From positions 1-52,522 of the forward strand of contig JAQTME010000008.1 in NCBI GenBank assembly GCA_028714535.1: 52,522 nt of DNA. The letters run 5' to 3'. The notes beneath the pieces are model-generated. The model did no database searches, was not told the origin of the DNA, and saw only the letters and a program-made list of their open reading frames with translations. Shown here piece by piece: positions 3,477 through 52,283 of this stretch. Numbering within the stretch: the first letter of the stretch is position 1; every line of letters begins with the position of its first letter. The DNA comes from Candidatus Iainarchaeum sp. Lineage in GTDB: Archaea; Micrarchaeota; Micrarchaeia; Anstonellales; Bilamarchaeaceae. The position numbers and the translations under genes were made by a program.

Positions 3477-4176
3477 GCAGGACCTCTGCGAATCCGAGCG
3501 AGCGCATCTTTTTCTGTATGGCGGCCATGCGGCGGGAGAGCCGCATGAAGTCAGACCTGTTGCCGCTTATCCAGATGTTCCTGCCGCTCACGATGAGGGA
3601 ACATGCCTTGAAGCCGATGGAAACCAGGTAGCGCCTTGCCGATGCCAGCTTTTTGATGAGCGGCGCGCCATTTGGCGCGGGAAGCTTGGCTGATGCCAGC
3701 TTGTCCCAGTTGGGCAGGCCGAACTCCTTCGCCAAAAGGCGTATTTCAGCCTTTGACAGGCCGCTTTCCAGGAGGGGGCTCCTGATGCCTGTATGCCGTG
3801 CGGCCACGAAACTGAAGCCGTTCTCGGCTGCGTCGTCCTTGTGCGAGCCGTCCAGCACGTTCCTGAGCTTCATGCGTGTGGCGATGCCCTTGAGGCTGCT
3901 GTAGATCTTCCCTTTGCACGAAACCGGCTGGTCTGGCTTGTATGTAATGTGCCTGGCGCCGATTATCCTTGCCACCCTGCGCGCAAGCATGAGCTCGGAT
4001 GAGGGGTAGTTGTCGGAAAGCGCGGTCACTGCCACTGCCTTGCCCCCCAGCTCCTCGCGGCAGATGCGCAGCAGCAGGGTGCTGTCCACCCCGCCCGAGT
4101 AGGCGACCAGCGCGCTGTCCATCTTCCGTATGCGGCTCCTGAGGTCCTCGAGCTTGCCTTCCAGTCTCCTGTCCAT
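3460..4176 (-). CDS. larE: LarE-like ATP-dependent PP-loop sulfur transferase family protein
   Basis: The protein has 238 residues. Residues 27-32 form the PP-loop SGGVDS that binds ATP and releases pyrophosphate in N-type ATP pyrophosphatases. The following TLLLR and the later ALSDNYPSSEL segment match the LarE/ExsB-like branch, whose characterised member sacrifices a Cys sulfur to build the nickel-pincer cofactor of lactate racemase. No larA, larB or larC gene is nearby, so the substrate here may differ. The protein is slightly shorter than usual (family about 260-275). It is divergent from the Lon-like gene with a shared promoter, and its stop region overlaps the upstream convergent gene. 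Confidence 0.8.
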   Translation of the reverse strand: MDRRLEGKLEDLRSRIRKMDSALVAYSGGVDSTLLLRICREELGGKAVAVTALSDNYPSSELMLARRVARIIGARHITYKPDQPVSCKGKIYSSLKGIATRMKLRNVLDGSHKDDAAENGFSFVAARHTGIRSPLLESGLSKAEIRLLAKEFGLPNWDKLASAKLPAPNGAPLIKKLASARRYLVSIGFKACSLIVSGRNIWISGNRSDFMRLSRRMAAIQKKMRSLGFAEVLLTLAS

Positions 4177-4198
4177 ACAAGCGGTTTTGTCTTGATAT

Positions 4199-4208
4199 GT
4201 TTATTAAG
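4199..4208. promoter_or_regulatory. Shared bidirectional TATA element (larE-like / Lon-like)
   Basis: TTTATTAA at 4200-4207 is the only AT-rich core between the divergent starts at 4176 and 4229 (53 bp apart). Its centre is about 27 bp from one start and 25 bp from the other, the BoxA distance for a leaderless mRNA in both directions. Confidence 0.65.
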
Positions 4209-4228
4209 TTGCCCTGGGAGAAAATGCC

Positions 4229-5914
4229 ATGAAATGGCTACTGGCCCTCATGGCGGCGATGCTGCTCCAGCTTTCGTCAGCTTCATGCAGCGGCACGATA
4301 TCGCAGTACGTGCCTGCGGTAATGGGGGAGGACGGCGGCCTCGTCAACGTGACGGTGTCGCTTGTGCCTGGCCACGGGGGCGCGTTCGCCACGGTGGAGC
4401 CGCTCACTGCGGTTTCAACGCAGGAGTCAATAGCCCAGGCAGTCAGCTATGCATACGAGCTCTCGGGGAAGTGGGGATGCGATGCCCTGGTGAGCTTCAT
4501 GACTCCGGAGCGGGCGTCGTATGTCGAAGGGCCGAGCGCAGGCGCCGCGCTCGCTGTAATGACCTATGCCCTGCTCGAGAACAGGACCATGCGCCAGGAT
4601 GCAATAATCACCGGCACCATAGATGAAGGGGGCGGCGTAGGCGGCGTCGGCGGGCTGTATGAGAAGGCCACCGGCGCCGCGCAGAAGGGCGCGAAGTATT
4701 TCATAACGCCCACGGAGAGCTTCTACGAGGTCCTCCTGCTGAGGGGCGTTGAGGAAGAATACGGGCTGAAGGTGCTCCAGGCGCGCAACGTGAGCGAGCT
4801 CATAGGGTTCATGATCTACAACATCAGCATAGCGCAGGAGGGCATGGGCACCGAGAAGCGGCCCATCCCCGACCTTCAGCCATATGATACCGCCGGCTTT
4901 GAGCGGTTCGTGCCGGTGGCGCAGGGCATGATAGGCCTAGAGCAGGACGCCATGCTGGCGCTCAACGGGACCGACGAGGAAACTGCCGTGATGAGGGATT
5001 TTTTCCGGAACGAGGTCCTGCGGCAGAACAGGATTCTTGAGCGTGGCTACGCGTTCAGCGCGGCCAACGAGGCATTCCTCAACTACATAGACATTTCCAC
5101 CATCACGGCGATGGTCTCCGGCGGCGTCGACCTGCCGCGGAAGAAAGGCGAGGCCGGCGCGTGCCTTTCGCAGATAAGGAAGCCTGCCATGACAGACGCG
5201 AATTTCGAGTGGGTCATAGGGGCGGACCAGCGGGAGGGCTGGGCATACCAGAAGCTGAACGAGACCGAGACTGACGGCAGGGTCGTGAGCGATGAGAGAT
5301 ATTCCAGGTACAACGACCTGATGTACGCCCAGGCGTGGTGCAGCGTGGCCAAGGGGCTCGCATCAGCCGCGCCCGAGGGAGGCAGGCCGGTCGACGAGAG
5401 CGTGTGGAAGGGCATGGCGGCCGAGAAGCTTGCGCTCGCGCGTTCGGTGCCAGCGGGCGGGCCGGACATCCAGTTCAAGCTGGATACGGCCGCCGCAGCC
5501 TACGAGCAGGGCAGGTATGGCGCGGCGATATATGACGCCTTATACGTGATAACGATGGGCGATGCCGCAGGCAATGCGACGCTGCCGGGCGAAAACCGCA
5601 CATCGCTCTGGGGGAGGATATACCAGTCGCAGGGCGCTTTCCTGGATGCAGAGGGCGAGGATGCGGGGAAGATACTCGCTTTCGCCAGGGCGCTTGATGG
5701 GGCCACGGCTGAGATGAGGGCCGCGCTTCCGGAAGATAATGCGCCCGCTGAGGCGCCTGGCGGTGGCCTGCTCATGCTGGCGGCCGCGTTTGTGCTGACT
5801 TCATCGCTTATCCTAATGTTTTTATTGTTGCTTATGCTAATACTTGGTCGTGGAAATCACTCCCAGGGAACTCGCACGGCTGATAGAGCTAAACAAAAAA
5901 AGGGCAGAGCTTGA
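4229..5914 (+). CDS. Membrane-anchored Lon-type (S16) serine protease without AAA domain
   Basis: The protein has 561 residues. Residues 1-20 form a signal peptide or N-anchor (MKWLLALMAAMLLQL). Residues 28-190 resemble the Lon proteolytic domain: EGPSAGAALAV carries the nucleophile Ser103, and GTIDEGGGVGGVGGLYEKATGA carries the catalytic Lys146, giving the Ser-Lys dyad. No Walker motifs are present. A helical region of about 300 residues follows, and a C-terminal transmembrane segment (about 510-535) precedes a short basic tail. The protease domain is therefore predicted to lie outside the membrane. It overlaps the next gene, suggesting translational coupling. S16-like membrane proteins of this type occur in archaea, but substrates are unknown. 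Confidence 0.85.
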   Translation: MKWLLALMAAMLLQLSSASCSGTISQYVPAVMGEDGGLVNVTVSLVPGHGGAFATVEPLTAVSTQESIAQAVSYAYELSGKWGCDALVSFMTPERASYVEGPSAGAALAVMTYALLENRTMRQDAIITGTIDEGGGVGGVGGLYEKATGAAQKGAKYFITPTESFYEVLLLRGVEEEYGLKVLQARNVSELIGFMIYNISIAQEGMGTEKRPIPDLQPYDTAGFERFVPVAQGMIGLEQDAMLALNGTDEETAVMRDFFRNEVLRQNRILERGYAFSAANEAFLNYIDISTITAMVSGGVDLPRKKGEAGACLSQIRKPAMTDANFEWVIGADQREGWAYQKLNETETDGRVVSDERYSRYNDLMYAQAWCSVAKGLASAAPEGGRPVDESVWKGMAAEKLALARSVPAGGPDIQFKLDTAAAAYEQGRYGAAIYDALYVITMGDAAGNATLPGENRTSLWGRIYQSQGAFLDAEGEDAGKILAFARALDGATAEMRAALPEDNAPAEAPGGGLLMLAAAFVLTSSLILMFLLLLMLILGRGNHSQGTRTADRAKQKKGRA

Positions 5915-10625: not shown

Positions 10626-11075
10626 CTATATGCCGGAGCCCTTTCCGGTCTTCTTGTTTATCTCCTGGAGCAGCGCCTTTATGTCGTTATAGCGGACGTT
10701 GGACACGTGTATGGCTATAGCTGCGCCGCCCGCGGTGTCTATGCTCACGGTCCCTACGCCGAGGATGCGTTCCAGGAGCCCCTGGGCGTAGCTTGTCTCA
10801 GTTATCTTGGCGTATGGCAGGACAGTGCGCCTGGTCGCGAGAAGGCCGGACGCATATGCTATTGTGTTCTGTTCGAGCGTTATGGTCTGCAGTTTCGCGG
10901 CCAGGACGGCCAGCGCCACGAAAATAATCCCGCCGAGCCAGGCTATCGCCAGGAACGTGAGGAACAGGCCCCGGAGCAGGTCCTGGACCAGCACGAGGAA
11001 TATGGTGACGAGCAGGAGATAAAGGAGGATTTTCACCCCGGCGACGACCGGGCTGGGATGGAACGAATGGGCCAT
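10626..11075 (-). CDS. PH-domain (DUF304-like) membrane protein
   Basis: The protein has 149 residues. Two hydrophobic helices (about residues 14-36 and 38-60) are followed by a bacterial-type PH domain beginning LQTITLEQNTIAYASGLLAT and containing the typical VLPYAKITETSYAQGLLERI strand-loop and GVGTVSIDTAGG. Such proteins are thought to anchor or signal at the membrane, with no known enzymatic activity. The start is 55 bp from the divergent rnhA start with one shared TATA box. The next gene on the strand follows after 9 bp. Confidence 0.85.
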   Translation of the reverse strand: MAHSFHPSPVVAGVKILLYLLLVTIFLVLVQDLLRGLFLTFLAIAWLGGIIFVALAVLAAKLQTITLEQNTIAYASGLLATRRTVLPYAKITETSYAQGLLERILGVGTVSIDTAGGAAIAIHVSNVRYNDIKALLQEINKKTGKGSGI

Positions 11076-11097: not shown

Positions 11098-11106
11098 TAT
11101 AAAAAT
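11098..11106. promoter_or_regulatory. Shared bidirectional TATA element (PH-domain gene / rnhA)
   Basis: TATAAAAAT lies midway between the minus-strand start at 11075 (27 bp) and the plus-strand ATG at 11130 (28 bp). The spacing argues that rnhA starts at 11130 and not at the ATG at 11115, which is too close to the box. Confidence 0.65.
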
Positions 11107-11129: not shown

Positions 11130-11552
11130 ATGCTTGTGATATTCACGGACGGGTGCTGCCTGGGGAATCCAGGCCCCATGGGCATAGGCGTAGTAATATA
11201 CAGGGACGGCGTGCGCGTCGAGGAGCTGGACGAGTACATAGGCGACGGGACGAACAACGTGGCCGAGTATACGGCGGTGATACGCGCGCTGGAGACCGCA
11301 CATGAGATGGGCGATGCCAAGGTGCACCTGAAAAGCGACAGCCAGCTCCTCATAAGGCAGCTCAACAACGAGTACAAGGTCAAGGACGCCAAGCTGCGCC
11401 CCCTGAAGAAGAGGGTGGAGGGCCTGTGCCACGGGCTTGAGATTCATTTCGAGCACATCCCGCGGGAGAAGAACTCGGAGGCGGACAAGCTGTCCAAGGA
11501 GGCTGCGGAACTGGGAAGGAAGCGGGCAGCAGAAACCCGGGGGATGAAATGA
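11130..11552 (+). CDS. rnhA: Ribonuclease HI, archaeal type 1
   Basis: The protein has 140 residues. It carries the RNase H acidic core: Asp7 in IFTDG, Glu46 in NNVAEYTAV, Asp70 in LKSDSQLL and Asp119 in NSEADKLSK. Together with GNPGPMGIG this is the usual two-metal site that cleaves RNA in RNA-DNA hybrids. No hybrid-binding or reverse-transcriptase domain is attached. An in-frame ATG at 11115 would add five residues, but the TATA box position supports 11130. The 3' end overlaps the next gene by ATGA, so the two are translationally coupled. Confidence 0.93.
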   Translation: MLVIFTDGCCLGNPGPMGIGVVIYRDGVRVEELDEYIGDGTNNVAEYTAVIRALETAHEMGDAKVHLKSDSQLLIRQLNNEYKVKDAKLRPLKKRVEGLCHGLEIHFEHIPREKNSEADKLSKEAAELGRKRAAETRGMK

Positions 11553-15112: not shown

Positions 15113-15421
15113 ATGATAGTTGCATTCTCGACTTATCCGGACAGCAAGAGCGCGAGGAAGGCGGCCAGGGACATCGTGACGAAGAAGCTGGCGGCGTGCG
15201 TAAGCATCATCAACGTCGAGGAATCCTATTACCGCTGGAAAGGCAGGGTGGACAGGCAGCCGGAATACCTGCTCATCATAAAGACGAGCAGGACTGCATA
15301 CGCCAGGCTTGAGGCGTTCATAAAAAAGGGCCACCCGCACAAGGTCCCTGAGATAATCTGGATGGACGTAAAAGGCGGCCTGGGGGAATACCTCGCCTGG
15401 GTGCAGGCGAACTCAGGATAG
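15113..15421 (+). CDS. cutA: CutA1-like divalent cation tolerance protein
   Basis: The protein has 102 residues. It shows the CutA1 pattern: AFSTYPDSKSARKAARDIV, KKLAACVSIINVEESYYRWK, EYLLIIKTSRTAYARLEAFI and HPHKVPEIIWMDV. CutA1 forms very stable trimers; its role in metal tolerance is debated. Full length for the family. The last 9 bp overlap the opposing rnp2 gene. Confidence 0.93.
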   Translation: MIVAFSTYPDSKSARKAARDIVTKKLAACVSIINVEESYYRWKGRVDRQPEYLLIIKTSRTAYARLEAFIKKGHPHKVPEIIWMDVKGGLGEYLAWVQANSG

Positions 15422-15721
15422 GCTCTTTATCGTGCCGCTGGACTTGAGCGCGACTACGCGCGCCGGCGCGCCGTCAAGCGAATCGAGGAGTGCGAGGAAT
15501 CCGAGCACTTTTTCCAGGTAATCGCGTTCGCAGCGCAGCATGCCCTGCTTCTTCGCCTTGTCATAGGAAACGAGCTTGAGCGCGGCGTAGGAAAGGCCGA
15601 ACTCGCCGAAAAAGCTGAGCGCCTCGTTGTAGAGCGAGCGTTTCAACAGCTCCTCGCCCAGATCGGCGCCGCGCAGCTCGAATAGTATGTAGCGTTTCCT
15701 CAGCGACCGTGCCTTGGCCAT
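15413..15721 (-). CDS. rnp2: Ribonuclease P protein component 2 (Pop5 homologue)
   Basis: The protein has 102 residues from the ATG at 15721 (MAKARSLRKRYILFEL). An upstream in-frame ATG at 15739 would add six residues but sits too close to the TATA element. The RRM-like alpha-beta fold with RYILFELRGADL and LKLVSYDKAKKQGMLRCERD fits archaeal Rnp2/Pop5, which pairs with Rnp3 and activates RNase P RNA for 5' tRNA maturation. It is divergent from purE with a shared promoter. Confidence 0.85.
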   Translation of the reverse strand: MAKARSLRKRYILFELRGADLGEELLKRSLYNEALSFFGEFGLSYAALKLVSYDKAKKQGMLRCERDYLEKVLGFLALLDSLDGAPARVVALKSSGTIKSLS

Positions 15722-15745
15722 GAGATAGCTTTGTTGCATAATGGA

Positions 15746-15752
15746 TTTTAAA
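15746..15752. promoter_or_regulatory. Shared bidirectional TATA element (rnp2 / purE)
   Basis: TTTTAAA lies between the starts at 15721 (about 28 bp) and 15775 (about 26 bp), which are 54 bp apart. It supports the shorter Rnp2 start. Confidence 0.65.
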
Positions 15753-15774: not shown

Positions 15775-16212
15775 ATGGAAAAAGTGCTCATACTCTCGGG
15801 AAGCAAGAGCGACGAGGAGATAGCGAAGCAGGCGATGGAAGTGCTCAACGTCTTCGGCGTGCCCTGCAGGTACGAGGTCGCCTCCGCGCACAGGAACCCT
15901 GACAAGGTGGACAGGCTGGTGAGGGAGAGCACCGCCCAGGTGTTCATAGCCATCGCCGGGCTCAGCGCGGCGCTTCCAGGCGTTGTCGCATCGAAAACGG
16001 TCAAACCTGTCATCGGCGTGCCGGTCGGCGCAGCCCTAGGAGGGCTTGACGCGCTGCTCGCCACTGCGCAGATGCCGCCCAACGTGCCCGTGGCATCGGT
16101 GGGCATAGGCATGGGCAAGAATGCAGGCCTCCTGGCCGTGGAGATACTCGCACTTAACGATGCCGTGCTCGCTTCCAGGCTTGCTGAATTCAAGGAGAAG
16201 CTCAAGGCGTGA
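15775..16212 (+). CDS. purE: N5-carboxyaminoimidazole ribonucleotide mutase
   Basis: The protein has 145 residues. LSGSKSD at residues 7-13 is the phosphate-binding loop and SAHRNP (His39) is the active-site motif of class I PurE. GLSAALPGVVA and PVIGVP follow as in the family. PurE moves the carboxylate of N5-CAIR to C4 in de novo purine synthesis. No purK or other pur gene is in the window. A methyltransferase gene follows after 4 bp, probably in the same transcript. Confidence 0.96.
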   Translation: MEKVLILSGSKSDEEIAKQAMEVLNVFGVPCRYEVASAHRNPDKVDRLVRESTAQVFIAIAGLSAALPGVVASKTVKPVIGVPVGAALGGLDALLATAQMPPNVPVASVGIGMGKNAGLLAVEILALNDAVLASRLAEFKEKLKA

Positions 16213-22085: not shown

Positions 22086-22739
22086 ATGGCAAAGAAGAAG
22101 GAAGAGGCGGACGGCCCGCACGCGGGCTGGAAAAAGCTGCTTTACGGCGCATCGATACTGATTTCTTTCGTGGGCTCGCTGGTGCTGCTGGCGTTCACGT
22201 TCCTGATAAACGACGCCCTGGACAAGACGCGCGACCTGACGCTGACAAGCGTGGAGGGCATCCAGGGCGACCTTGCCGCGCTGGACAACGCCCTGGCAAG
22301 CGCCGAGCAGGAGCTGAACGTGGTCAACGACACGCTGAGCGGCCTGCAGGGGGCGTTCACGCCCCTGGAGTCCGGCCTGGAGAAAACCGGCGATTCCATA
22401 GAGAGCCTGGCGGATGCCGCCTCCAGCATACCGCTGATAGGGTCGACAGTGCCGACCGCGGCCTTGAAGGAAGCGTCCGGCTCCATGAAGGCGGCTGCGG
22501 CAGAGCTCAGCCTGACAGCTGCCACGTTCGAAGAGCACAAGACCACGATGGGCGAACTGCAGTCCAAGGTGGGCGAGATACGGCAGACGGTGTCCGCACA
22601 GCGGACGACGCTCGCAGAGACGGCAACATCGATACAGGACGTCTTCGGCCTCATCAAGCTGGCCAACTTCCTGTTCTTCCTGGTCGTGATAAGCATGTTC
22701 AGCATGCTCGTCATCAATTCTGCGGCCGGGCTCCTCTAG
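22086..22739 (+). CDS. Two-helix membrane protein with long helical external region
   Basis: The protein has 217 residues. A basic N-terminus (MAKKKEEADG) and TM1 (about 22-44) are followed by about 140 residues of heptad-like helix (TLTSVEGIQGDLAALDNALA; MGELQSKVGEIRQTV). TM2 lies near the C-terminus (about 190-214). The layout resembles methyl-accepting or tape-measure-like helical hairpins but no family motif is present. It is monocistronic and its stop shares CTAG with the opposing lipoprotein gene. Confidence 0.75.
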   Translation: MAKKKEEADGPHAGWKKLLYGASILISFVGSLVLLAFTFLINDALDKTRDLTLTSVEGIQGDLAALDNALASAEQELNVVNDTLSGLQGAFTPLESGLEKTGDSIESLADAASSIPLIGSTVPTAALKEASGSMKAAAAELSLTAATFEEHKTTMGELQSKVGEIRQTVSAQRTTLAETATSIQDVFGLIKLANFLFFLVVISMFSMLVINSAAGLL

Positions 22740-23248
22740 CCGAAGATGGTGACGTCTGCCCATTCAGTGCCGCCATAGCCAGCGGCCACCTTTTTCACGA
22801 AAATGCGGTAGGCATGGCCGTCCGGCGCGATCCAGGTGCGGGACTGACCTGGACAGGCCACGAACCGGTCCACGACCGTGCCGTTGGCGGCTATGCTGAA
22901 GATGCCACACGGCTCTGATGACGACGGGATTATGGAAACGTCGTCCAGCACCAGCGAGTAGTTGCCGAACTGGATGCCGGCCGGGAGCGGCGCGGTTGCG
23001 TTTGCAGTGGCGTTGGGAAGAGTGCCGTTGCTGATATTTGAAACGTTGCCAGTGCTGGCGTTCTGGGCCGTCATGTTGCTCTCATTGATGACGGACTCGC
23101 CTGGCGTGAGGTTCTGCACCGGTTGGGTCTGGTTATCCGCAGGAACGGTAGCGTTCGGAGTGCCGTTTGCAGGCGTGGGATTTTCCGTGGGCTGCTGGGT
23201 GCAGCCGAGCAGCAACAGCATGGAGAGTGCAATCAGCATGATGCGCAT
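22736..23248 (-). CDS. Asn/Thr-rich lipoprotein
   Basis: The protein has 170 residues. The signal peptide ends in lipobox LLLLGC, giving a lipid-anchored Cys. Residues 17-92 are a low-complexity Asn/Thr/Pro linker with about ten NxT/S sequons, probably heavily glycosylated. A C-terminal beta-rich domain of about 75 residues (FGNYSLVLDDVSIIPSSSEP, with two Cys, ending EWADVTIFG) follows. The function of that domain is unknown. It is divergent from the DUF424 gene with a shared promoter. Confidence 0.8.
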   Translation of the reverse strand: MRIMLIALSMLLLLGCTQQPTENPTPANGTPNATVPADNQTQPVQNLTPGESVINESNMTAQNASTGNVSNISNGTLPNATANATAPLPAGIQFGNYSLVLDDVSIIPSSSEPCGIFSIAANGTVVDRFVACPGQSRTWIAPDGHAYRIFVKKVAAGYGGTEWADVTIFG

Positions 23249-23273
23249 GAAAGCATATGGAAAAGCAAAACAG

Positions 23274-23279
23274 ATAAAT
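23274..23279. promoter_or_regulatory. Shared bidirectional TATA element (lipoprotein / DUF424)
   Basis: ATAAAT lies between the starts at 23248 (about 28 bp) and 23302 (about 26 bp), which are 54 bp apart. It supports the DUF424 start at 23302. Confidence 0.6.
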
Positions 23280-23301: not shown

Positions 23302-23598
23302 ATGTACCTGAAGATACACGAGGGTGGCGGGCAGCGGGTCGTTGCCGTATGCGATGAGGAGCTCATAGGCAAGGTGCTCACGGACGGGAAGACCTACCTG
23401 GACCTTGACGCGCACAGGGGCTTCTACGTGGGCGAAAAGGCAGAGGCTGCCAACGTGAAGAAAGCGCTCGCCAGCTTCACATCGGCCAATCTTGTCGGCA
23501 AAAATGCGGTGAAAGTGGCGCTGGGCATGGGCCTTGCGTCCGACGACGACGTTATGTATATAAATAGGATACCGTATATCCAAATCTACAAAATCTAG
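23302..23598 (+). CDS. DUF424 family protein
   Basis: The protein has 98 residues. MYLKIHEGGGQRVVAVCDEE, LIGKVL and FYVGEKAE match the DUF424 signature (VAVCDxELIGK...FYxGE...NxVGxxAV). Family members are small archaeal proteins of unknown function; a role in tRNA/rRNA metabolism has been suggested from neighbourhoods but is unproven. In-frame upstream Met codons (23278, 23281) are rejected because they fall on the promoter. The ACT-domain gene follows after 11 bp. Confidence 0.88.
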   Translation: MYLKIHEGGGQRVVAVCDEELIGKVLTDGKTYLDLDAHRGFYVGEKAEAANVKKALASFTSANLVGKNAVKVALGMGLASDDDVMYINRIPYIQIYKI

Positions 23599-23609: not shown

Positions 23610-24017
23610 ATGAAGGTACTTACGATAGTTGCGGACGACAAGGTGGGGCTTCTCGCGGACATATCATACATACTCAGCAAGAGCAGGATAAACATCGACT
23701 CCGTGAACGTGGATGTCGTGTCCGGAAAGGCGATAATAACGCTCAGCATATCAGACGTCATCAAGGGCAAAACAGTGCTCGAAGCTTCTGGCTACTCGGT
23801 CGAGGGCGGCGAGGCGGTCATAGTGAAGATGCCTGACCAGCCCGGCGAGCTCAACAGGATAACCGCCATGCTGTCCAAGGAGAGCATAAACATAGAGAAC
23901 GTGCACACCCTGTCCAAGGACGGCAAGAGCACAGTGCTTTCCATACGCACGGACAAGCCGAAAAGGGCTGCGACGGTCCTCAAGGCCTACCTCATAACCA
24001 GGGAATCGACCTACTGA
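23610..24017 (+). CDS. Double ACT-domain protein
   Basis: The protein has 135 residues. The ATG at 23610 has an upstream GAGGTGG ribosome-binding sequence; the GTG at 23601 is inside it. Two ACT domains are visible: VLTIVADDKVGLLADISYIL (1-70) and VIVKMPDQPGELNRITAMLS (about 73-132), with the glycine turn DKVGLL and DQPGEL where amino acids or other small ligands bind. It is a stand-alone allosteric-type regulator. It overlaps the 3' end of the opposing NFACT gene by 7 bp. Confidence 0.9.
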   Translation: MKVLTIVADDKVGLLADISYILSKSRINIDSVNVDVVSGKAIITLSISDVIKGKTVLEASGYSVEGGEAVIVKMPDQPGELNRITAMLSKESINIENVHTLSKDGKSTVLSIRTDKPKRAATVLKAYLITRESTY

Positions 24018-25003
24018 AGCTCGATTTCCAGCGATTTCCCCTTCTTGTCTATCTTCGCGCCCAGCTTTTCCAGCTCTTCGAATTTCCCTTCCTTGGCCAG
24101 CGCCAGCAGGCGTTCTATTTCCGCGTAGTGCGCGTAGATGAAGTCGCCCTTCTGCTTGTCCAGCTTCTCCTCTTCCATCAGTTCCTGCAGCCTTTCCTTC
24201 TGCTTCTCCAGCCTGCGCACGAGCTTTTCCGCCTCCGGGTTCGGCAACTCGACGTTGGCGTAATATTCGTCGGCCGCCTCTGACAGCGACGCGCATGCGC
24301 GCGCTTCGCTGCCCTTGTGCCTGGAAAGCCGGGCGAGCGCGAAATCAACAGGCTTGCCGTTCTCGTAGAAGATGACGGGCTTGGCGGACGAGCGCAGATT
24401 CTCAAGCTCCTGCTCCAGCCTGAGCAGCTCGCCGCTGCCCAGCTTGTTTCCGGGCGTCTTCTCATCGATGCCGGCCCTGGCTAGCGCCTCTGCGGCGTAT
24501 TCCTTGCCGAATGGCAGCTTCATCAGCGAGACGATTATGTACCTGTCGGACGTTTCGAGCGCAGGCGGAGGCGCTGCGGGAGGCGAATATGGCTTTCCTG
24601 CCGCGATTTCCCTTCCGGCCCATTTCTCGTATTTCACCGCGCACAGCGTGATGCCGTTGCGGACCAGGATTGCGTTGCCCTTGCCGAACATCTCGAAGAC
24701 GAGCGCGCCCTTGTCGAACGTGAATGAGACTATGCGGTCGTTGTTCACCTGCTCCAGCGAGAGGAGCCGGGCGTTGTCAAGCTCCTTCGCCGCCTTTTCG
24801 GTGAACTTGTCGCCTTCGGCTTCGGTGATGTAGCGCGTCTCGTGGATGCGGACGCCAAGCTCGCACAATATCTCGCAGGTGCCGATTTTCATGCGATAGG
24901 CGTTCTCGCCCAGCTTCCTGATGCGGCCGAAGTGCTTCCCGACGATTTTTGGCGCAAGCTCGGCTGTGATGAATGAGTATTCCAGCGCTGACATTTCATG
25001 CAT
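24011..25003 (-). CDS. Shortened NFACT (Rqc2/RqcH-like) protein
   Basis: The protein has 330 residues. The start MHEMSALEYSFITAELA and the segment NNDRIVSFTFDKG (with the conserved DR pair of NFACT-N) identify the N-terminal domain. A helix-hairpin-helix-like part (about 155-205) and the first coiled coil (LVRRLEKQKERLQELMEEEK) follow. The protein ends in the coiled coil, so the second coiled-coil half and the NFACT-R domain found in full archaeal RqcH (about 600-700 residues) are missing. RqcH homologues act in ribosome-associated quality control. An internal ATG at 24994 is an alternative start. Confidence 0.85.
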   Translation of the reverse strand: MHEMSALEYSFITAELAPKIVGKHFGRIRKLGENAYRMKIGTCEILCELGVRIHETRYITEAEGDKFTEKAAKELDNARLLSLEQVNNDRIVSFTFDKGALVFEMFGKGNAILVRNGITLCAVKYEKWAGREIAAGKPYSPPAAPPPALETSDRYIIVSLMKLPFGKEYAAEALARAGIDEKTPGNKLGSGELLRLEQELENLRSSAKPVIFYENGKPVDFALARLSRHKGSEARACASLSEAADEYYANVELPNPEAEKLVRRLEKQKERLQELMEEEKLDKQKGDFIYAHYAEIERLLALAKEGKFEELEKLGAKIDKKGKSLEIELQ

Positions 25004-25026
25004 AATCCAGATGTTCCGCCATTCGT

Positions 25027-25034
25027 CTTAAATG
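25027..25034. promoter_or_regulatory. Shared bidirectional TATA element (NFACT / caspase-like giant)
   Basis: CTTAAATG lies between the NFACT start at 25003 (about 27 bp) and the TTG at 25055 (about 26 bp), which are 52 bp apart. It argues that the giant protein starts at 25055, not at the ATG at 24998, which is upstream of the box. Confidence 0.6.
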
Positions 25035-25054: not shown

Positions 25055-28000
25055 TTGAAGGGGATAATCATAGGGAAATTCAAGATAGCGGATGGTGCAG
25101 CCGCGGAAAAGCAGCTGCTGGAGGCCGTTCCCAGTGTCGCAGCGCCAAGCAGCACCTACGTTCCGGTGCGGCTTGAGAGAAGCATAGTGGAGAAGCACGC
25201 CCTTGCAGTGAATTTAGAAAACGCCGCCGAAAAGATCAGGCTGGCGAAGAAGTGCAATGAGGAGCTGTGGGCCATCCCGGAAAAGGGCAGGGAGAAACTG
25301 CTGGGTCAGATGGGCTACACCAAGGAGCAGATAAAGTATTACATGGGCGGGCTGGACTATTTCAACGACTATAACAACGCCATCATCACCCAGGCGAAGT
25401 CCATTGTCAAGAACGGCGCGACGGTGAAGGATCCGAAGCTCAGGGAGGCGATGACGAAATCAGCCAATGCCCTTGCAGGTAGCATCCTTGTGGCCTACAC
25501 ACCATACATTCTGTGGAAAGCCAAAGAGGCGAGGGCCAGCGAAGCCGCAAAGGCGCTGACACAGCTTGAAGATGCGCATTCTTACGTCGCCTACGCCAAG
25601 ATGTTCAATCTGTATAGCATGAAGGGCGACATAAACGGCAAGACAGCCTACGTGGCCGAAACGAATGGAGGCCTTGAGGCGAGGTATTACCGGCTGCTTG
25701 AAGCGCATCCGTCAGCCGTCAAGGCCAAGAGCCTGGATAGCTATAGGAAGGCGGTGGATGAGTTCTACAAGTACCACTCGGAATATTCACAGAAGCAGAT
25801 GGCCAGCTTCCAGAGCGAAACGGAGATAGGCAAGGCCAGGGGCCTGGAAAAGGCACGCCTCATCGCAAGCCCGTACATGGAAGCGTCGGTTCCCCTGTTG
25901 GCGGCAGGTCTGATGGGGGTTGGAGGCCCCGGCGGCTTCGCATTGGGCGCGTTCTATTTCGGCAATCAGGCAAAGGAATCGTTCGGAAGCGGCCACTACA
26001 TAACAGGCTCGCTTATCTCGCTGACGCTGATGACCCCATTCTTCTCGGCACTGAGGGCGACTCCCGTAGCCGCGGCGCGGACCGCAGGCAGGCTTGGCGG
26101 CGCTGCCAGTGCAGGGGCAGGGCTCGTATTCCAGGTCGGCATGGCGAAGGATGCGTTCAGCATAGTGTTTGACGCGTCCAGGACTGGCTGGACCAGTCAG
26201 GACGCCGCTGCGCTCATGAACATAGGCGGATTCATGGCAATGCCCCTTGCCAGCGCCAGGGCTGCAAAAGCTGCCGGGCCTAAAGAGGGGTTACAAACGA
26301 CTGGTTTCCTGGCAGCGCAGCCAGAACCAATTGGGAAGCCGAGGATGAAGATGGCTGACGCTAAAGAGGGTGCGGGTCCAAAGGAGAGCGGGGGGACCAA
26401 CGTCCAGCTCAGCGAAGCGTCGCTCAAACCCATCCGCGACAAATATGGCAGCATCGTAGGGATTATGGAAATGATCGTGCCTGCACTGGCCGATGCGGTG
26501 GCAAAGGAATCCGATAAGGATAGCATCTGGGGAACAAAGAAAAGCGCTGAAAGTTTTGCAGAGGAACTTTGTGCGCCAGATGCCGTGAAGGCAGCCATGA
26601 CGTACAAAAACAATCCTGAAGTCGCCGCAACAGTGGTCCTGCAGTTCCTGCACTCGGCCCAATACCGCAGGGATGTGAATGAAGCGGCACGGAACCTGTC
26701 GAGGAAGGAGGTCGTAGATGTGCTCGGCCGCATCCGGGTGGATATCAAGACCGCAGAAGGCATTGCCAAGCTTTTTGCTTCCACGAATGACTTGGAAACA
26801 CGGGCGTGCTGCCGTACGATAATGGGGCTACTGAAAATCCCTGGTGCACTTGAAGGGGTCGTGGATAGCTTCCCACAAGCTCTGGCAATGCACTGGCCGA
26901 GAAACTTGGAGGGGTTGGACAAGCCGGAAGTGATGGCTGCCCTATCCAGATATGCGGCCGTACCTGAGGCTGCAAGGACCGTAGCATATTCACTTACCGA
27001 GGCAGTGATGAATAGCAGGGATTTGACACAGCTGGCAGTCAGACTCGCGAAACCAGAGGTGGTTCGTGCGATAACCGCACTCGGAAGTGTGCCCGAAGCC
27101 GCAGAAGCGATGGCAGGTTCTTTCGCAGCGCTGGCGGCACGGAGCGAAGGCAATCCAGTGGCAGTCGCAAAGAAGATTTTGGACCCGAAAATGGACATAG
27201 ATGCGATAGTCAGGGGCATTAAAGGCCCTGGGGTTGCCGCCAGCTTGAAAAGGGATATTGCCATCTACCTGTTCGGTGTTTCTTACAAACCGTCCCTAGT
27301 GGCACTTACCTTTGAGATTTGCGGTGAAGCAGGAAAATCAAGGGGGCGCCAGACAGGTACGGCTGTACTTTCAGACGTGGCTCGGCTAATGAAAACGCCG
27401 CAATTGGCAGATAAGGTGGCCAGGGCCTTCCCGGCCCTTGCAAATGGGAAAGTGAATCCGGAAGTGATTGCAGAAGGGCTGAAAAAATTCGATGCGCCGG
27501 ACCGGCAGAAGATTATGAGCGAGTATTTCCACCTCTTCTTTGCGAAGGATGATAGAGCCGCAGCGAAGGAAAATGGCCTGCGAGAGGAGAATTTAGCATA
27601 TGAAAGGTGGGCGGGCTATGGTCCGGTTGATTGGGATTTTAAGACAGGGTATGAAGCGTGGGCCAGGGTATTGGAGGTGGAGGGGGAACGTCCCGGCATA
27701 TGTTCGGCGCTATACAAGCAGAATGGGATAAGGTTCTTTGAGAGGTATAGCATGCCGACCCTTCTGCGCATTTACGATAATCTGGGTAAGCGAAAAAAGG
27801 GTAAACCAGTCCTGCTCGTATTCACTGGGGTGGCGGACCATAATGGTGCGTTCAAGCCCAAGCCGGTCAGTATGCTTCAGGCGGTTCGGGAACAGGACAT
27901 CATAGGCGACTTCTGGAAGGATTTTGACGTGCACATCGTCGAGGCGGGAAGCAGGTACGAAGCGGCGAGAAGGATAATAGGCATCAGCAACACGTACGGG

Positions 28001-28375
28001 AAACCGAAGGTCCTGTATTTCAACGCCCATGGCAATGTCGATCGAGCGAAGCTCGGCTGGAAAGAGGATGAGGTAGTCAATGTGAAGGGCCTTGTCTCCG
28101 GCGCCGACCTTTCCAGGTATTTTGATGAACGCCCCACCGTCGTTCTTGCATCGTGCTCAACTGGTGCAAAAGGCGGATTTGCAGAGCAGACGCAGGCGCG
28201 ATTCGGAAATACGCTAATGTACGCTCCGAAAATTCCCACTGCCACAAACAGCGTGAAATTTTTGGGGATGACGGGGGGTTGGGCAATATTTGATGTTGCA
28301 TATGCTGAAGGGGACATAACGGCCGAGTTCACACCCAAAAATAAGCAGGTTGGCAGCATCGCTTCGAATAAGTAG
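25055..28375 (+). CDS. Giant protein with C-terminal caspase-like (clan CD) peptidase domain
   Basis: The protein has 1,106 residues from the TTG. Residues about 1-270 are helical. Residues 270-420 hold hydrophobic Gly/Ala-rich segments (VPLLAAGLMGVGGPGGFALG, ITGSLISLTLMTPFFSAL). Residues about 490-840 contain HEAT-like repeats (KPEVMAALSRYAAVPEAART, KPEVVRAITALGSVPEAAEA). The C-terminal about 200 residues look like a caspase/gingipain-type fold: VLLVFTGVADHNG, then VLYFNAHGN with His992 and TVVLASCSTGAKG with Cys1034, the His-Gly and Ser-Cys dyad context of clan CD. It is an intracellular candidate protease; activity and trigger are unknown. Confidence 0.8.
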   Translation: MKGIIIGKFKIADGAAAEKQLLEAVPSVAAPSSTYVPVRLERSIVEKHALAVNLENAAEKIRLAKKCNEELWAIPEKGREKLLGQMGYTKEQIKYYMGGLDYFNDYNNAIITQAKSIVKNGATVKDPKLREAMTKSANALAGSILVAYTPYILWKAKEARASEAAKALTQLEDAHSYVAYAKMFNLYSMKGDINGKTAYVAETNGGLEARYYRLLEAHPSAVKAKSLDSYRKAVDEFYKYHSEYSQKQMASFQSETEIGKARGLEKARLIASPYMEASVPLLAAGLMGVGGPGGFALGAFYFGNQAKESFGSGHYITGSLISLTLMTPFFSALRATPVAAARTAGRLGGAASAGAGLVFQVGMAKDAFSIVFDASRTGWTSQDAAALMNIGGFMAMPLASARAAKAAGPKEGLQTTGFLAAQPEPIGKPRMKMADAKEGAGPKESGGTNVQLSEASLKPIRDKYGSIVGIMEMIVPALADAVAKESDKDSIWGTKKSAESFAEELCAPDAVKAAMTYKNNPEVAATVVLQFLHSAQYRRDVNEAARNLSRKEVVDVLGRIRVDIKTAEGIAKLFASTNDLETRACCRTIMGLLKIPGALEGVVDSFPQALAMHWPRNLEGLDKPEVMAALSRYAAVPEAARTVAYSLTEAVMNSRDLTQLAVRLAKPEVVRAITALGSVPEAAEAMAGSFAALAARSEGNPVAVAKKILDPKMDIDAIVRGIKGPGVAASLKRDIAIYLFGVSYKPSLVALTFEICGEAGKSRGRQTGTAVLSDVARLMKTPQLADKVARAFPALANGKVNPEVIAEGLKKFDAPDRQKIMSEYFHLFFAKDDRAAAKENGLREENLAYERWAGYGPVDWDFKTGYEAWARVLEVEGERPGICSALYKQNGIRFFERYSMPTLLRIYDNLGKRKKGKPVLLVFTGVADHNGAFKPKPVSMLQAVREQDIIGDFWKDFDVHIVEAGSRYEAARRIIGISNTYGKPKVLYFNAHGNVDRAKLGWKEDEVVNVKGLVSGADLSRYFDERPTVVLASCSTGAKGGFAEQTQARFGNTLMYAPKIPTATNSVKFLGMTGGWAIFDVAYAEGDITAEFTPKNKQVGSIASNK

Positions 28376-41185: not shown

Positions 41186-41872
41186 TCAGAAGACCTTTTC
41201 CCCGACGTACACCTTGACGCCGGATGGCGTTACCTTGAACGGCACCAGGTCGCGGGAATGGTCCGTTCCGCGCATCTTGAACACTTCCATGGCGCGTATG
41301 CGGCGGTCCTCGCGGTCCAGGTTGTAGAGGTTTATGATGCCATCCATGACGAAATGCTCTATGTCGTAGCGCATCTCCTCCCTTTTCGAGGTGCTGGCCT
41401 CGAGGGTTGTTATCGAGGTCACGTCCAGGTTGCGGAGCAGGGAGAGGAATTCGAATAGGGTCTGCCTGTACTCGATGTCATTCTTGAACGACAGCCGGAT
41501 CATTGTCGCGGAGTCTATGACCGCCCTCTTTATCCCGTTGGAGGTTATGCGGTCCTCGAGCAGGTTCGCGACCTCCTCCAGCTCCAGCTTGTCGGGCTTG
41601 ATTATCTCCAGCTTCTTGCTTGAGACCAGCTTGCCGATTTCCGACAGCATGGGGAACGTGTTCTTCATGTTCTCCACGATGTCGTCTGGAGTCTCCTCGA
41701 GCGTCACGTAGAGTCCCGGCTCGCCCATCTGCGCGCCATGGTAGAGGAATTCATAGCAGAACGACGTTTTGCCAGCGCCGGGGCCGCCGTACAGGGCCAC
41801 GTGCCTGCCTATCGGTATCCCGCCATTGAGCATCTCATCCAGTCCGGAGATTCCTGTCTTGACACGGTCCAT
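41186..41872 (-). CDS. Single-domain KaiC/RAD55-like ATPase
   Basis: The protein has 228 residues. GISGLDEMLNGGIPIGRHVA and Walker A GGPGAGKTS, then YVTLEETPDDIVENMK, AVIDSATMIRL (Walker B) and ITTLEAS identify the KaiC-like RecA superfamily branch common in archaea. Unlike KaiC it has one domain. Such proteins often sit with signalling or motility genes; none are adjacent here. It is divergent from rfcS with an overlapping promoter. Confidence 0.92.
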   Translation of the reverse strand: MDRVKTGISGLDEMLNGGIPIGRHVALYGGPGAGKTSFCYEFLYHGAQMGEPGLYVTLEETPDDIVENMKNTFPMLSEIGKLVSSKKLEIIKPDKLELEEVANLLEDRITSNGIKRAVIDSATMIRLSFKNDIEYRQTLFEFLSLLRNLDVTSITTLEASTSKREEMRYDIEHFVMDGIINLYNLDREDRRIRAMEVFKMRGTDHSRDLVPFKVTPSGVKVYVGEKVF

Positions 41873-41897: not shown

Positions 41898-41914
41898 ATA
41901 AAATTTATATATAT
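41898..41914. promoter_or_regulatory. Overlapping bidirectional TATA elements (KaiC-like / rfcS)
   Basis: ATAAAATTTATATATAT contains a box about 25 bp from the rfcS GTG at 41933 and a complementary-strand box about 28 bp from the KaiC-like start at 41872. The starts are 61 bp apart. Confidence 0.6.
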
Positions 41915-41932: not shown

Positions 41933-42892
41933 GTGACAGGCAAGACAGACATACTTCCGTGGACCGAGAAATACAGGCCGGGCAGGCTCGAGGACGTGGC
42001 AGGCCAGCAGGACATCGTGGCAGGCCTCAGGGCTTTCGTAAAGGCCAGGAACATGCCCAACATGCTGTTCGCGGGGCCGCCGGGCGTCGGGAAGACCACC
42101 TGCGCCATAGCGCTGGCGCGCGAGCTGTTCGGCGACGAGATGGGGGCGAACTTCCTGGAATTGAACGCCAGCGACGAGCGAGGCATAGACGTGGTGCGCG
42201 GCAGGATAAAGGACTTCGCGCGCTCTGTCTCCATGGGCAAGGTGCCCTTCAAGCTCATATTCCTGGACGAGGCGGACGCGCTGACGGCAGATGCGCAGCA
42301 GGCGCTGCGCCGCACCATGGAATCCAGCTCAGCGGTCACGCGCTTCATAATATCGGCCAACTACTCGTCCCGCATCATCGAGCCCATACAGAGCAGGTGC
42401 GCGGTGTTCCGCTTCATGCCATTGCAGGAGAAAGACGTCCGCAAGATGCTGGCCCACGTGTCCAAGGAGGAGAAGCTGCACGCGGACGAGGAGGCTGAGA
42501 AGGCCATATTCTACGTCTCCGAAGGCGACATGCGGAGGGCGCTAAACATACTCCAGGGCTGCGCGATGCATTCGGCGAAAATCACTGCCGAGCTCGTCCA
42601 CAAGACCAGCAGCAGGGCTACGCCGAAGGAAGTGAAGGAGATGGTGGAGCTGGCATTGAAGGGCAGCTTCCAGGGGGCGCGCGAGAACCTTGACAAGCTC
42701 ATCATAACCTACGGCCTGAGCGGCGAGGACATCATGCTCCAGGTGTACCGGGAGGTGCCGAAGCTCGACATACCGGAAAGGGACAAGATGAGGCTCATAG
42801 AGCTCATCGGGGAATATAATTTCAGGCTGGTGCAGGGCGCAAACGAGCGCATCCAGCTCGAGTCCCTGCTGGCGCAGTTCGCCAAGAAGTGA
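41933..42892 (+). CDS. rfcS: Replication factor C small subunit
   Basis: The protein has 319 residues from a GTG (MTGKTDILPWTEKYRPGRLE). The frame is open further upstream, but that would run through the promoter. Walker A is GPPGVGKT (48-55), Walker B LIFLDEADAL (DEAD 112-115), sensor ATRFIISANYSSRIIEPIQS and the SRC arginine-finger motif follow. It forms the clamp loader with RfcL to load PCNA. Downstream secreted-protein genes follow after 4 bp. Confidence 0.96.
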   Translation: MTGKTDILPWTEKYRPGRLEDVAGQQDIVAGLRAFVKARNMPNMLFAGPPGVGKTTCAIALARELFGDEMGANFLELNASDERGIDVVRGRIKDFARSVSMGKVPFKLIFLDEADALTADAQQALRRTMESSSAVTRFIISANYSSRIIEPIQSRCAVFRFMPLQEKDVRKMLAHVSKEEKLHADEEAEKAIFYVSEGDMRRALNILQGCAMHSAKITAELVHKTSSRATPKEVKEMVELALKGSFQGARENLDKLIITYGLSGEDIMLQVYREVPKLDIPERDKMRLIELIGEYNFRLVQGANERIQLESLLAQFAKK

Positions 42893-49626: not shown

Positions 49627-49743
49627 CGTGCAGGCGTGGGAAAGCAGGGAGATTGCAGCGTTGTGGCCAGTGCCCAGCCGGGCCGCCGGAAATGCGATTC
49701 GCCACCCGGAGCCTTCTTAATCTTTTTCGACGTATTATGCCAC

Positions 49744-50013
49744 ATGCAGGGGTTGTTGTGCCAAAGAATATGCAGGGAGATGACCAAGAACGCGCAGGCG
49801 CACGGAATAACTGTTTTCCATGGCAGGCGAGCCGGCATGGTTCCCTGGAATAAGCTGAAGATAACCTTCAGGTGGGAGGGCCAGCCGGAGCGGACCATGA
49901 CGCTGGCTGATTACTTCAGGCGTATTAAGAAGTCTGATGAGCTGGGGAGAAAGAACTCCGTCATGGTCTGGAGCGAGAGGGACGAAATGCTCTCCCGGAT
50001 GCATTCCAGATAG
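49744..50013 (+). CDS. Small hypothetical protein
   Basis: The protein has 89 residues from the ATG at 49744, chosen because TTCTTAATC lies about 26 bp upstream; an ATG at 49780 is an alternative. It is basic (RRAGMVPWNKLKITFRWEGQ, MTLADYFRRIKKSDELGRKN) and not hydrophobic, perhaps a small ubiquitin-like or nucleic-acid-binding fold, but no family is recognised. It ends 8 bp before the opposing PEP carboxylase gene. Confidence 0.55.
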   Translation: MQGLLCQRICREMTKNAQAHGITVFHGRRAGMVPWNKLKITFRWEGQPERTMTLADYFRRIKKSDELGRKNSVMVWSERDEMLSRMHSR

Positions 50014-50021
50014 GATGAACA

Positions 50022-51485
50022 TTAGCCGAGGAACCTTCTCTTCCACGCGGCAGCCTTGACGTCCTCGGTTATGTGCGTGTGCTTCCCTGCCTTGTAGTTC
50101 TCGTATATGCGCGTCGTCAGCTCCGCGTACTCGTCGTCGGGCTCGCAGTCCACCCATCCGAGCACCTTGGTGACGCCGTCGCGCACGGGCTTGGGCATCC
50201 TGCCCAGGTTCACCTTGTTCAGGTATTTCGCCGAGTCCTTCAGGTCCTCGTCCACCTTCACGTAGAGTTCGTGCAGCTCGTCGAATTCCCTGTCGCTGAG
50301 CGCGGAGATGCCGAGCAGTTCCGGCGGGATTCCGATCGAGTAGAACGAGGCGCAGAACTTTATCGCGCGTGGCAGCTTTATGCCCTTCATGGAGCGTGCG
50401 TAGCCGAAGAGGCCGATGTGCAGCTTCCTCGCACGGCGGCCCGGGACGAACACGGACAGCCCGTTTACCAGGTCTGCGACCTGGCTGAGCTGGGCCTGGT
50501 ATTCCTTGACGATCTTGTTGGCGAACGCCAGGGCCTTTTTCCCGTCTACGTGGCGGGGCGGGCCGCGGCGGGCGTCGTTCATGATGTCGACCGCGTTCAC
50601 CACGTCCCTGAACGGGTGGTCGTACTTGAACGACGACTGCGCAGTGAACGTCTGCACGCTCGGGTATTCCTCGCCGCAGTTGCTGACGTTGTTGGGCGTG
50701 AAGTTGCCGCGGAACGGCGCCCCTCCCACGCCCAGTATGGGCAGTATCGGGATGCCGGTCTTCTCCTCCACGGCATGGAGCTTCTGCAGGGCGACCTTGG
50801 CCAACAGCACCGCGGTGGCAGAGCCGTAATTAAGCGCCGGGTCGCTCCGCGCGAGGAAAACACGCTGGTACTCGGGATTCTTCCCTTTCAGGTATTTCAG
50901 CACCACCTCGTCGCACGAGGAGATGGACTCGAAGTCCTCGAAAAGCGGTATTATGTTGATGTGCTCCGGCTGGAAGTCGCCCACCCAGTCCCGGACAGAT
51001 ATCTTCTCAGCGCCGAGCCTCGTCTCCTTCTGGCCGATTAGCACCTGCTCGTAGTAGTTGCGCACGCGCTCCAGTTCCAGGTGCGAGGTAGTCATGGGCA
51101 GGATTACCTCGAATATGGGCGGGGTGTCTATGCCTGCCGCCTTGGCCACGTCGTAGGCGCGCGGGATGCTGTGCAGCGTCTCCAGCAGTATCTTGCCCTG
51201 GCCCTTCTCCACGGACGGGTTGGGCACGCGGTAGGTGAGCCTGAATTCCCTCCCCAGCCTGTTCTTGCTGAAGAAGTCCAGGTAGCGCGAGAGCAGCTTC
51301 TCCACGACCTGGTTGTCAGCTTCCTTCCCTTCGCTGTCCCACATCTGCTCCCTGCAGCCCATCTGGGAGAAGACGAAGAAAGCCTCCTTGACCTCGGCCT
51401 CGCCCGCGAGGATTTCCGAGTCGGAAAAGAACGGGGTAGCTATGTTGTCCGGATGCTGCGTGCTCATGCACCGTGGAACGCTCAT
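50022..51485 (-). CDS. ppcA: Archaeal-type phosphoenolpyruvate carboxylase
   Basis: The protein has 487 residues from MSVPRCMSTQHPDN; an ATG at 51467 is an alternative. MSTQHPDN, VILPMTTSHLELERV, ILGVGGAPFRGNFTPNN and SVQTFTAQSSFKYDH are hallmarks of the short archaeal PEPC, half the size of the bacterial enzyme. It carboxylates PEP to oxaloacetate. The frame is open well upstream to 52022 on this strand but that stretch belongs to the divergent membrane gene. It shares a palindromic TATA box with that gene. Confidence 0.96.
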   Translation of the reverse strand: MSVPRCMSTQHPDNIATPFFSDSEILAGEAEVKEAFFVFSQMGCREQMWDSEGKEADNQVVEKLLSRYLDFFSKNRLGREFRLTYRVPNPSVEKGQGKILLETLHSIPRAYDVAKAAGIDTPPIFEVILPMTTSHLELERVRNYYEQVLIGQKETRLGAEKISVRDWVGDFQPEHINIIPLFEDFESISSCDEVVLKYLKGKNPEYQRVFLARSDPALNYGSATAVLLAKVALQKLHAVEEKTGIPILPILGVGGAPFRGNFTPNNVSNCGEEYPSVQTFTAQSSFKYDHPFRDVVNAVDIMNDARRGPPRHVDGKKALAFANKIVKEYQAQLSQVADLVNGLSVFVPGRRARKLHIGLFGYARSMKGIKLPRAIKFCASFYSIGIPPELLGISALSDREFDELHELYVKVDEDLKDSAKYLNKVNLGRMPKPVRDGVTKVLGWVDCEPDDEYAELTTRIYENYKAGKHTHITEDVKAAAWKRRFLG

Positions 51486-51508
51486 AACAAGTAAGAGGCG
51501 GGGGTCTG

Positions 51509-51516
51509 ATTTAAAT
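51509..51516. promoter_or_regulatory. Palindromic shared TATA box (ppcA / membrane protein)
   Basis: ATTTAAAT is a perfect palindrome whose centre is 27.5 bp from each of the starts at 51485 and 51540 (55 bp apart). Confidence 0.7.
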
Positions 51517-51539
51517 GTTTTCCTTTTGATAGATACGTC

Positions 51540-52283
51540 ATGATTGCCAGCCTCTCCAGAGCGTTCAGTGCCTATTCCAAGAAGCCGTTCAATTTCGTGT
51601 GGTGCTCCCTCACTTACCTGATCCTGCTCATCCTCTTCACGCTCGCCTGCATCGGCATCTTCATCGTCTACTTCCTTTTCGCGTCGGTGTTCAACAAGGC
51701 AGTGAGCTTCTCTTCCATATCCACGATAATAGTCTCGACATTCGTGGTGATAATATTCCTGTTCTTCGCAAACGGCCTGAACGGCGCGCTGGCCATGTCC
51801 TACCGCAAGGCCATGGGCAAGGAGAAGACAAGCCTCGTTGCGTTCTATTCCTACGCGCTCGGCAGGGCGCCGGTCATGTTTGCGCTGATGCTGGTCCGCG
51901 ACCTCATCTGGCTGGTGGCCATAGGGCCCTTCATAGCCGCCTATGTCTATGCATTCCAGGGCATGGCGTACATGGATGCGGTGCTGGCCGCCTATGCGCT
52001 GTTCATGACCTTCATAATCCACATGCTATTCACGCCGGCATTCCTGTCAGCCGGGGCCTACGGCACGGGCATGATGGCGTCGCTGCGCAATGCCGTCAGG
52101 CTGCTGCGCAGGAAGCACATATTCTTCATATGCCTCTATGCGCTGTTCGCGCTGGTATGGCTGCTGAATTTTGTGCCGTTCATCCAGCTCGCGACGCTGT
52201 TCTTCGTCTATCCTGTGGTGTACGGGGCCATGATATCCCTGCTCGAGACCGGCATGAGGATTGAGACCGAGGAGGAAGACTGA
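51540..52283 (+). CDS. Multi-pass membrane protein
   Basis: The protein has 247 residues with about six hydrophobic helices (LTYLILLILFTLACIGIFIV, ISTIIVSTFVVIIFLFFANG, APVMFALMLVRDLIWLVAIG and others) and an acidic C-terminus (IETEEED). The layout resembles small archaeal membrane proteins of unknown function (DUF975/DUF7847-like), with SLRNAVRLLRRKH as a cytosolic basic loop. It overlaps the next gene by TGATG, so the two are probably co-translated. Confidence 0.8.
   Translation: MIASLSRAFSAYSKKPFNFVWCSLTYLILLILFTLACIGIFIVYFLFASVFNKAVSFSSISTIIVSTFVVIIFLFFANGLNGALAMSYRKAMGKEKTSLVAFYSYALGRAPVMFALMLVRDLIWLVAIGPFIAAYVYAFQGMAYMDAVLAAYALFMTFIIHMLFTPAFLSAGAYGTGMMASLRNAVRLLRRKHIFFICLYALFALVWLLNFVPFIQLATLFFVYPVVYGAMISLLETGMRIETEEED

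Follow-up and report, generated by a model that had tools for sequence, protein, structure and literature searches.

Symmetric promoters of bacteria and archaea, in which a direction-less core element fires both ways through the symmetry of its DNA, were reportedly described by Warman et al. in 2021, and in the leaderless promoters of haloarchaea the TATA box lies ∼26 bp upstream. The promoters of Pyrococcus furiosus built as BRE-TATA-BRE (BRE: transcription factor B recognition element) carry one TATA element, 49 bp were measured between both transcription start sites (TSSs) in vitro for one such promoter, and an antisense signal is found ∼50 bp upstream of primary TSSs; the second transcript was studied mainly as antisense RNA upstream of head-to-tail genes, the mRNAs are mostly leadered and a BRE stands on both sides (PMC6640164). 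Divergent bacterial TSSs are usually 18 bp apart, starting from a −10 element, and the accessible text states no rule for start-codon spacing (PMC10268837). Here, we describe seven divergent gene pairs in a stretch of 52 522 nucleotides (the window; contig JAQTME010000008.1, forward strand, of assembly GCA_028714535.1, Candidatus Iainarchaeum sp., Micrarchaeota), the start codons of which are separated by 53, 55, 54, 54, 52, 61 and 55 bp (pairs 1–7, numbered along the window). One near-palindromic TATA box very probably acts as the core promoter of both divergent genes and would thereby fix their spacing.

The direction-less core element, predicted here from sequence, is like that said to have been found by Warman et al. 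A single near-symmetric TATA between oppositely directed starts is also shared with the P. furiosus system (PMC6640164); unlike there, two leaderless mRNAs are predicted, orthologs keep the spacing between the start codons and no second BRE is apparent. The mRNAs would begin at the start codon, as described for the leaderless promoters of Haloferax volcanii (PMC4983044). Bidirectional archaeal promoters are thus already known; the conserved start-codon spacing is new, and no report of such a rule was found in a search of full-text literature, most subscription papers being outside its scope.

The genome to which the window belongs comprises 1.14 Mb, and the GC content in the window is 56–63 % per 4 kb. 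The closest matches of the small subunit of replication factor C (RFC; 41933..42892, + strand) come from Candidatus Micrarchaeota (best 80 % identity), and two TFB-type genes were identified in the genome (four PF00382 half matches on two contigs); together with the GC content, these findings make an archaeal promoter served by TATA-binding protein (TBP) and transcription factor B (TFB) the right frame. Distances were measured in an own-genome sample consisting of the window and 400 kb of the same genome (452 kb, 431 genes, 74 divergent pairs), which is 91 % coding, that is, compact. Genes were called with a program written for this analysis that relies on nothing but codon usage and the type of start codon; it is blind to promoters.

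The spacing observed in the window is confirmed and extends beyond it. In the own-genome sample, 13 of 74 divergent pairs lie at 51–55 bp, compared with 6 spread over the 20 neighbouring values (41–50 and 56–65 bp; binomial P 6.5e-6). Outside the window, where the earlier note had called for a sharp start-to-start peak, 9 of the 63 pairs in the 400 kb sampled fall at 51–55 bp and 5 in the flanks (binomial P 3.8e-4). A stricter null, in which every distance was jittered, the peak was left inside the null and all 5-bp bins were scanned, gave P 0.0045, P 0.0015 and 0/4000 for the whole own sample (jitter 10, 15 and 25 bp). Gaps between tandem genes have no such bin (8 of the 93 gaps of 20–100 bp fall at 50–54 bp). 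Counts of CAT...ATG made without start calling place d=53 at the top of 101 values (238, the next being 231); as a test these start-agnostic counts were discarded, because codon periodicity dominates them and leaves little information. With an AT core at the midpoint as an added condition, a modest bump appeared (26 at 51–56 bp, compared with 11 at 45–50 bp and 10 at 57–62 bp).

Six genomes from within the genus or order were treated likewise, 99–200 kb being sampled from each. Pooled, they contain 20 of 175 pairs at 51–55 bp, the 20 neighbouring values accounting for 17 (P 4.7e-6); this peak is uneven, with 14 of the 20 pairs coming from two genomes (G032, 10/40; G028, 4/22), followed by G034 (2/19), G016 (2/38), G009 (1/32) and G039 (1/24). 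Own genome and relatives taken together, the commonest distances are 53 bp (12 pairs) and 54 bp (11 pairs). Genomes listed under the same genus differ widely in GC content: the own genome (G000) has 0.59, whereas the portions of G009 and G016 that were sampled have 0.40 and 0.41. Five more distant genomes, reached through RFC matches (one Diapherotrites, one Micrarchaeota and three titled 'archaeon'), have 6 of 104 pairs at 51–55 bp and 6 in the flanks (P 0.019); in the first four of the other genomes, the peak is weak and lacks significance (4/63; scan-corrected P 0.958). No peak was found in samples of Thermococcaceae and Methanoperedenaceae (1/49, with 6 in the flanks). Unlike the own genome, two haloarchaeal replicons (plasmid records) lack a peak at 51–55 bp (1/35 pairs), and divergent genes on them are separated by a median of 180 bp compared with 94 bp in the own genome. 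In Haloferax, a genus other than the two sampled here, 72 % of mRNAs are leaderless (PMC4983044). If the two sampled genera are mostly leaderless too, the missing haloarchaeal peak indicates that leaderless transcription alone is insufficient, and short intergenic regions appear to be required as well.

That the peak arises from the choice of start codons, or by chance, is hardly credible. In favour of such an artefact, the starts of three of the seven window pairs are not picked by the promoter-blind caller, and the scan-corrected P outside the window is only 0.0125–0.054; yet the peak arises with promoter-blind starts and recurs in the pooled relatives, tandem gaps have no peak, and the spacing is conserved in orthologs.

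A promoter model was built from 153 regions upstream of other genes, divergent pairs closer than 100 bp having been left out. It consists of an A-rich BRE followed by TTTWTAAA, the box lying at −30 to −23 with its centre at −26.5, and accounts for ∼61 % of the regions (mixture weight). The TATA position measured here agrees with the ∼26 bp known for haloarchaea. This centre was learned without the peak pairs, and with it one box serving two leaderless genes predicts a spacing of 53 bp. The best boxes of the + and − strands are identical (within 2 bp) in 27 of the 34 own-sample pairs at 49–100 bp and in just 2 of the 36 pairs at more than 100 bp, and 25 of the 27 shared-box pairs have no separate second box of at least 5 bits in reach. 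The single TATA-like box proposed in the earlier note as common to both genes is thereby supported by the sequence. At position −1, the peak pairs carry C in 10/13 and 8/13 cases on the two sides (18 of 26 starts), compared with 41 of 128 operon-internal genes.

Genome compaction might instead have pushed two separate promoters as close together as they can lie, with no box in common. The high coding density speaks for this, as do four of the 74 own-genome divergent pairs with starts just 29–38 bp apart, in which the boxes of the opposite genes are 14–32 bp from each other. A minimum would, however, pile up at its edge; instead, the own genome and the six relatives give a narrow peak with 33 pairs at 51–55 bp and 4 at 39–48 bp, and the two best boxes coincide, which makes this explanation very improbable. 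The pairs at 29–38 bp (for example, L024:6018-6047 and L015:8738-8772) have an interlocked, face-to-face layout in which each promoter would reach into or beside the opposite start.

The mechanism proposed for the shared box is as follows. TBP would bind a near-palindromic TATA box midway between the divergent genes, TFB would set the direction of each initiation event, and polymerase would leave to either side, one polymerase at a time, so that the two genes might compete. If both mRNAs are leaderless, with starts ∼26.5 bp from the box centre, a start-to-start distance of 53±2 bp would result; if one mRNA carries a short leader with a Shine–Dalgarno sequence, the same box would give ∼60–90 bp. 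The second gene would be placed at the point from which the reverse transcript starts. Among wider pairs, one gene keeps its box at ∼26 bp and the partner has it at least 33 bp away. Among orthologs, Shine–Dalgarno matches of at least 4 nt were found in 26 of 36 far-box genes and in 18 of 77 near-box genes (P 1.1e-6), the latter being about at the chance rate of ∼0.24; operon-internal genes have such matches in 91 of 128 cases. Wider pairs thus often share a box, with a leader on the farther gene, which suggests that what all these pairs have in common is the shared box, 53 bp being its fully leaderless case. Leaderless transcription of both genes, as claimed earlier for all seven pairs, is probable from the sequence for the shared-box pairs at ∼53 bp and does not fit pair 6 (41872/41933), a leaderless plus short-leader type whose box stands 25.5 bp away on the RFC side and ∼35.5 bp away on the side of the KaiC-family gene. 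In one ortholog of this pair (L107), the KaiC/RFC spacing is ∼49 bp and the Shine–Dalgarno-like stretch of the other relatives is missing, as if a leadered start had turned leaderless.

Orthologous pairs were collected from relatives, with starts chosen nearest to that of the window protein. Loci missing one partner were dropped (pair 1, 2/16; pair 2, 1/14; pair 3, 8/15; pair 4, 12/15; pair 6, 9/29; pair 7, 10/26), as were a pair-3 locus in which 874 bp separate the partners, one non-divergent pair-6 locus and one pair-6 locus without a start codon near the expected place; for pair 5, no subject in the search of relatives matched both partners. Pairs wider than 100 bp were left out of the half-distance and Shine–Dalgarno analyses of orthologs. 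At 51–57 bp lie 9/14 orthologs of pair 1, 10/13 of pair 2 and 3/6 of pair 3, the other three of which are at 50 bp. The half distances from box to start in close ortholog pairs are 25.6/27.1 bp (pair 1), 26.6/25.5 bp (pair 2) and 26.5/25.0 bp (pair 3), with standard deviations of 0.0–1.6 bp on both sides. The spacing holds while flanking sequence and the box itself vary (ATTATAAA compared with ATTTAAAT in pair 2). Orthologs of pair 6 span 49–250 bp and those of pair 7 52–314 bp; in most of these sequences one conserved box block is present (AAAATTTATATA-like and ATTTAAATAATTTGC-like, respectively). The pattern suspected earlier to be genome-wide is borne out by the peak in the own genome and is, in addition, conserved in the ortholog spacing of pairs 1–3.

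A different account would have one gene of each pair use the box, the other having its own promoter elsewhere or arising from weak antisense leakage, with the distance as a by-product. BRE-like sequence is mostly one-sided, and near-palindromic boxes can falsely look bidirectional, as this account would have it. Both half distances are nevertheless held within ∼1–2 bp in the orthologs of pairs 1–3, 25 of the 27 shared-box pairs offer no alternative box, and the A-rich side differs among 25 orthologs (+ only in 8, − only in 6, both in 3 and neither in 8), so that we consider the one-gene account quite improbable. In the orthologs of pair 2 (L281–L293), an A-rich stretch is present on the + side in some and not in others, the spacing being kept; promoter polarity may drift between them.

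Several results weigh against a two-way core promoter. Outside the window, the jitter null gives only P 0.054, 0.036 and 0.0125 (jitter 10, 15 and 25 bp). Given the near-palindromic sequence of the box, the coincidence of best boxes demonstrates chiefly that there is a single box. C at −1 is equally common in divergent genes outside the peak and is only suggestive. The Shine–Dalgarno contrast in the own sample has the same direction as in the orthologs and is not significant (12/20 far, 14/36 near; P 0.17). On the weaker side of the peak pairs, neither BRE nor box outscores the reverse of 28 one-way promoters (BRE P 0.81, box P 0.63; n=12), and in only 3/25 orthologs is an A-rich BRE found on both sides. 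No ortholog of pair 4 (0/3) or pair 6 (0/18) and 2 of the 16 orthologs of pair 7 lie at 51–57 bp; the ortholog counts are in any case descriptive, owing to the way in which starts were chosen and to the relatives not being independent. Singly, G009 (1/32), G016 (2/38) and G039 (1/24) have no peak.

A purpose-built symmetric promoter with a second BRE was looked for and not found in the comparison of the weak side with the 28 one-way reverses, in which n is small. The word 'design' used in the earlier note is too strong, given that no promoter with BRE on both sides was found and that pair 6 combines a leaderless with a short-leader gene; an ordinary near-palindromic TATA box with genes at its two initiation positions fits better. 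As a second BRE is not evident, the simplest mechanism would be a near-palindromic TATA box that is bidirectional by nature, as in P. furiosus.

Taking these lines together, we lean, somewhat beyond an even balance, towards a broader reading for this Micrarchaeota order, in which the direction-less TATA box would be a standing unit of genome layout. About one third of divergent pairs would share a box, leaderless translation would convert the fixed distance from TBP to TSS into a fixed distance between start codons, and selection would hold both sides; the side with the stronger BRE could switch between species and leave the pair intact. If true, promoter direction could be read from genome sequence, with start-codon spacing reporting TSS spacing; a natural set of conserved two-way promoters would become available for the question of how TBP, TFB and BRE choose direction, and a small genome would be seen to run two genes off one core promoter. 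Divergent pairs at 51–57 bp could also help to correct start-codon annotation in uncultured archaea.

Start codons are present at all seven pairs of positions given by the earlier note, with the spacings claimed, although not all are ATG as it had stated: the + starts 25055 (TTG) and 41933 (GTG) differ in codon, their positions being correct. Its placement of each box 25–30 bp from both starts fails for pair 6, and the box of pair 4 is poor. Pair 1 consists of a PP-loop ATPase-like gene (3460..4176, −; weak Asn_synthase and ATP_bind_3 matches) and a gene for a Lon protease-domain, membrane-like protein (4229..5914, +); its box TTTATTAA (4200..4207), kept in orthologs, has its centre at a distance of 25.5 bp on the + side and 27.5 bp on the − side. 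In pair 2, a bPH_2 domain protein gene (10626..11075, −) faces away from an RNase H gene (11130..11552, +), and box TATAAAAA (11098..11105) precedes the + start by 28.5 bp and the − start by 26.5 bp, a spacing kept in orthologs. Pair 3 joins a gene for an RNase P subunit of the Rpp14/Pop5 family (15413..15721, −) to an AIR carboxylase (PurE-like) gene (15775..16212, +); box ATTTTAAA (15745..15752), for which orthologs were also read, precedes the + start by 26.5 bp and the − start by 27.5 bp. Between a gene without Pfam match, the start of which appears lipoprotein-like by eye (22736..23248, −), and a DUF424 gene (23302..23598, +), pair 4 has the weak candidate box AGATAAAT (23272..23279; 2.0 and 2.6 bits).

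Pair 5 comprises an NFACT_N gene (24011..25003, −) and a gene of 1106 amino acids with a putative TTG start and no Pfam match at E 0.01 (25055..28375, +); the candidate shared box TCTTAAAT (25026..25033) precedes the TTG by 25.5 bp and the start at 25003 by 26.5 bp. In pair 6, the KaiC-family ATPase gene (41186..41872, −) is likely to have a leader, and the shared box TTTATATA (41904..41911) is 25.5 bp from the GTG of the RFC gene. Pair 7 is formed by an archaeal-type phosphoenolpyruvate (PEP) carboxylase gene (PEPcase_2; 50022..51485, −) and a gene for a membrane-like protein without Pfam match (51540..52283, +). Its shared box ATTTAAAT (51509..51516) was verified as a perfect palindrome, its centre separated from either start by 27.5 bp, just as the earlier note had it. 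Unaided, the promoter-blind caller recovers four of the seven pairs (4176, 11075, 15721 and 23248); for two genes it favours downstream starts (24994 rather than 25003, and 51467 rather than 51485), and it misses the 41872 gene, the + gene being stretched upstream to 41738. The Pfam PEPcase_2 match covers residues 3–487 of 487 in the product of the 51485 gene, which supports the start at 51485 over that of the caller.

The partner genes are functionally unrelated throughout the window (PP-loop/Lon domain, bPH_2/RNase H, Pop5-like/AIR carboxylase, no match/DUF424, NFACT/no match, KaiC/RFC and PEP carboxylase/no match), and no evident functional links were found in the nine peak pairs outside it, for which 16 of 18 proteins were scanned (two cross stretch joints). 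The idea that pair partners are co-regulated, raised earlier, is not supported, because the pairs join unrelated genes. As a device for making two products in balance or in alternation, the arrangement would draw on the mutual exclusion that a shared initiation complex would imply, and some pairs do remain together in relatives. Partners such as an RNase P subunit and AIR carboxylase, or a bPH_2 protein and RNase H, have no evident link, however, and both partners occur in just 7/15 loci for pair 3 and 3/15 for pair 4, where short loci may miss some; co-regulation is accordingly judged unlikely.

Among the relatives' best matches to the Lon-domain protein of pair 1 (4229-5914), 5 of 16 (L297, L301, L302, L305 and L306) are orthologs with one or two in-frame stops, mostly TGA.

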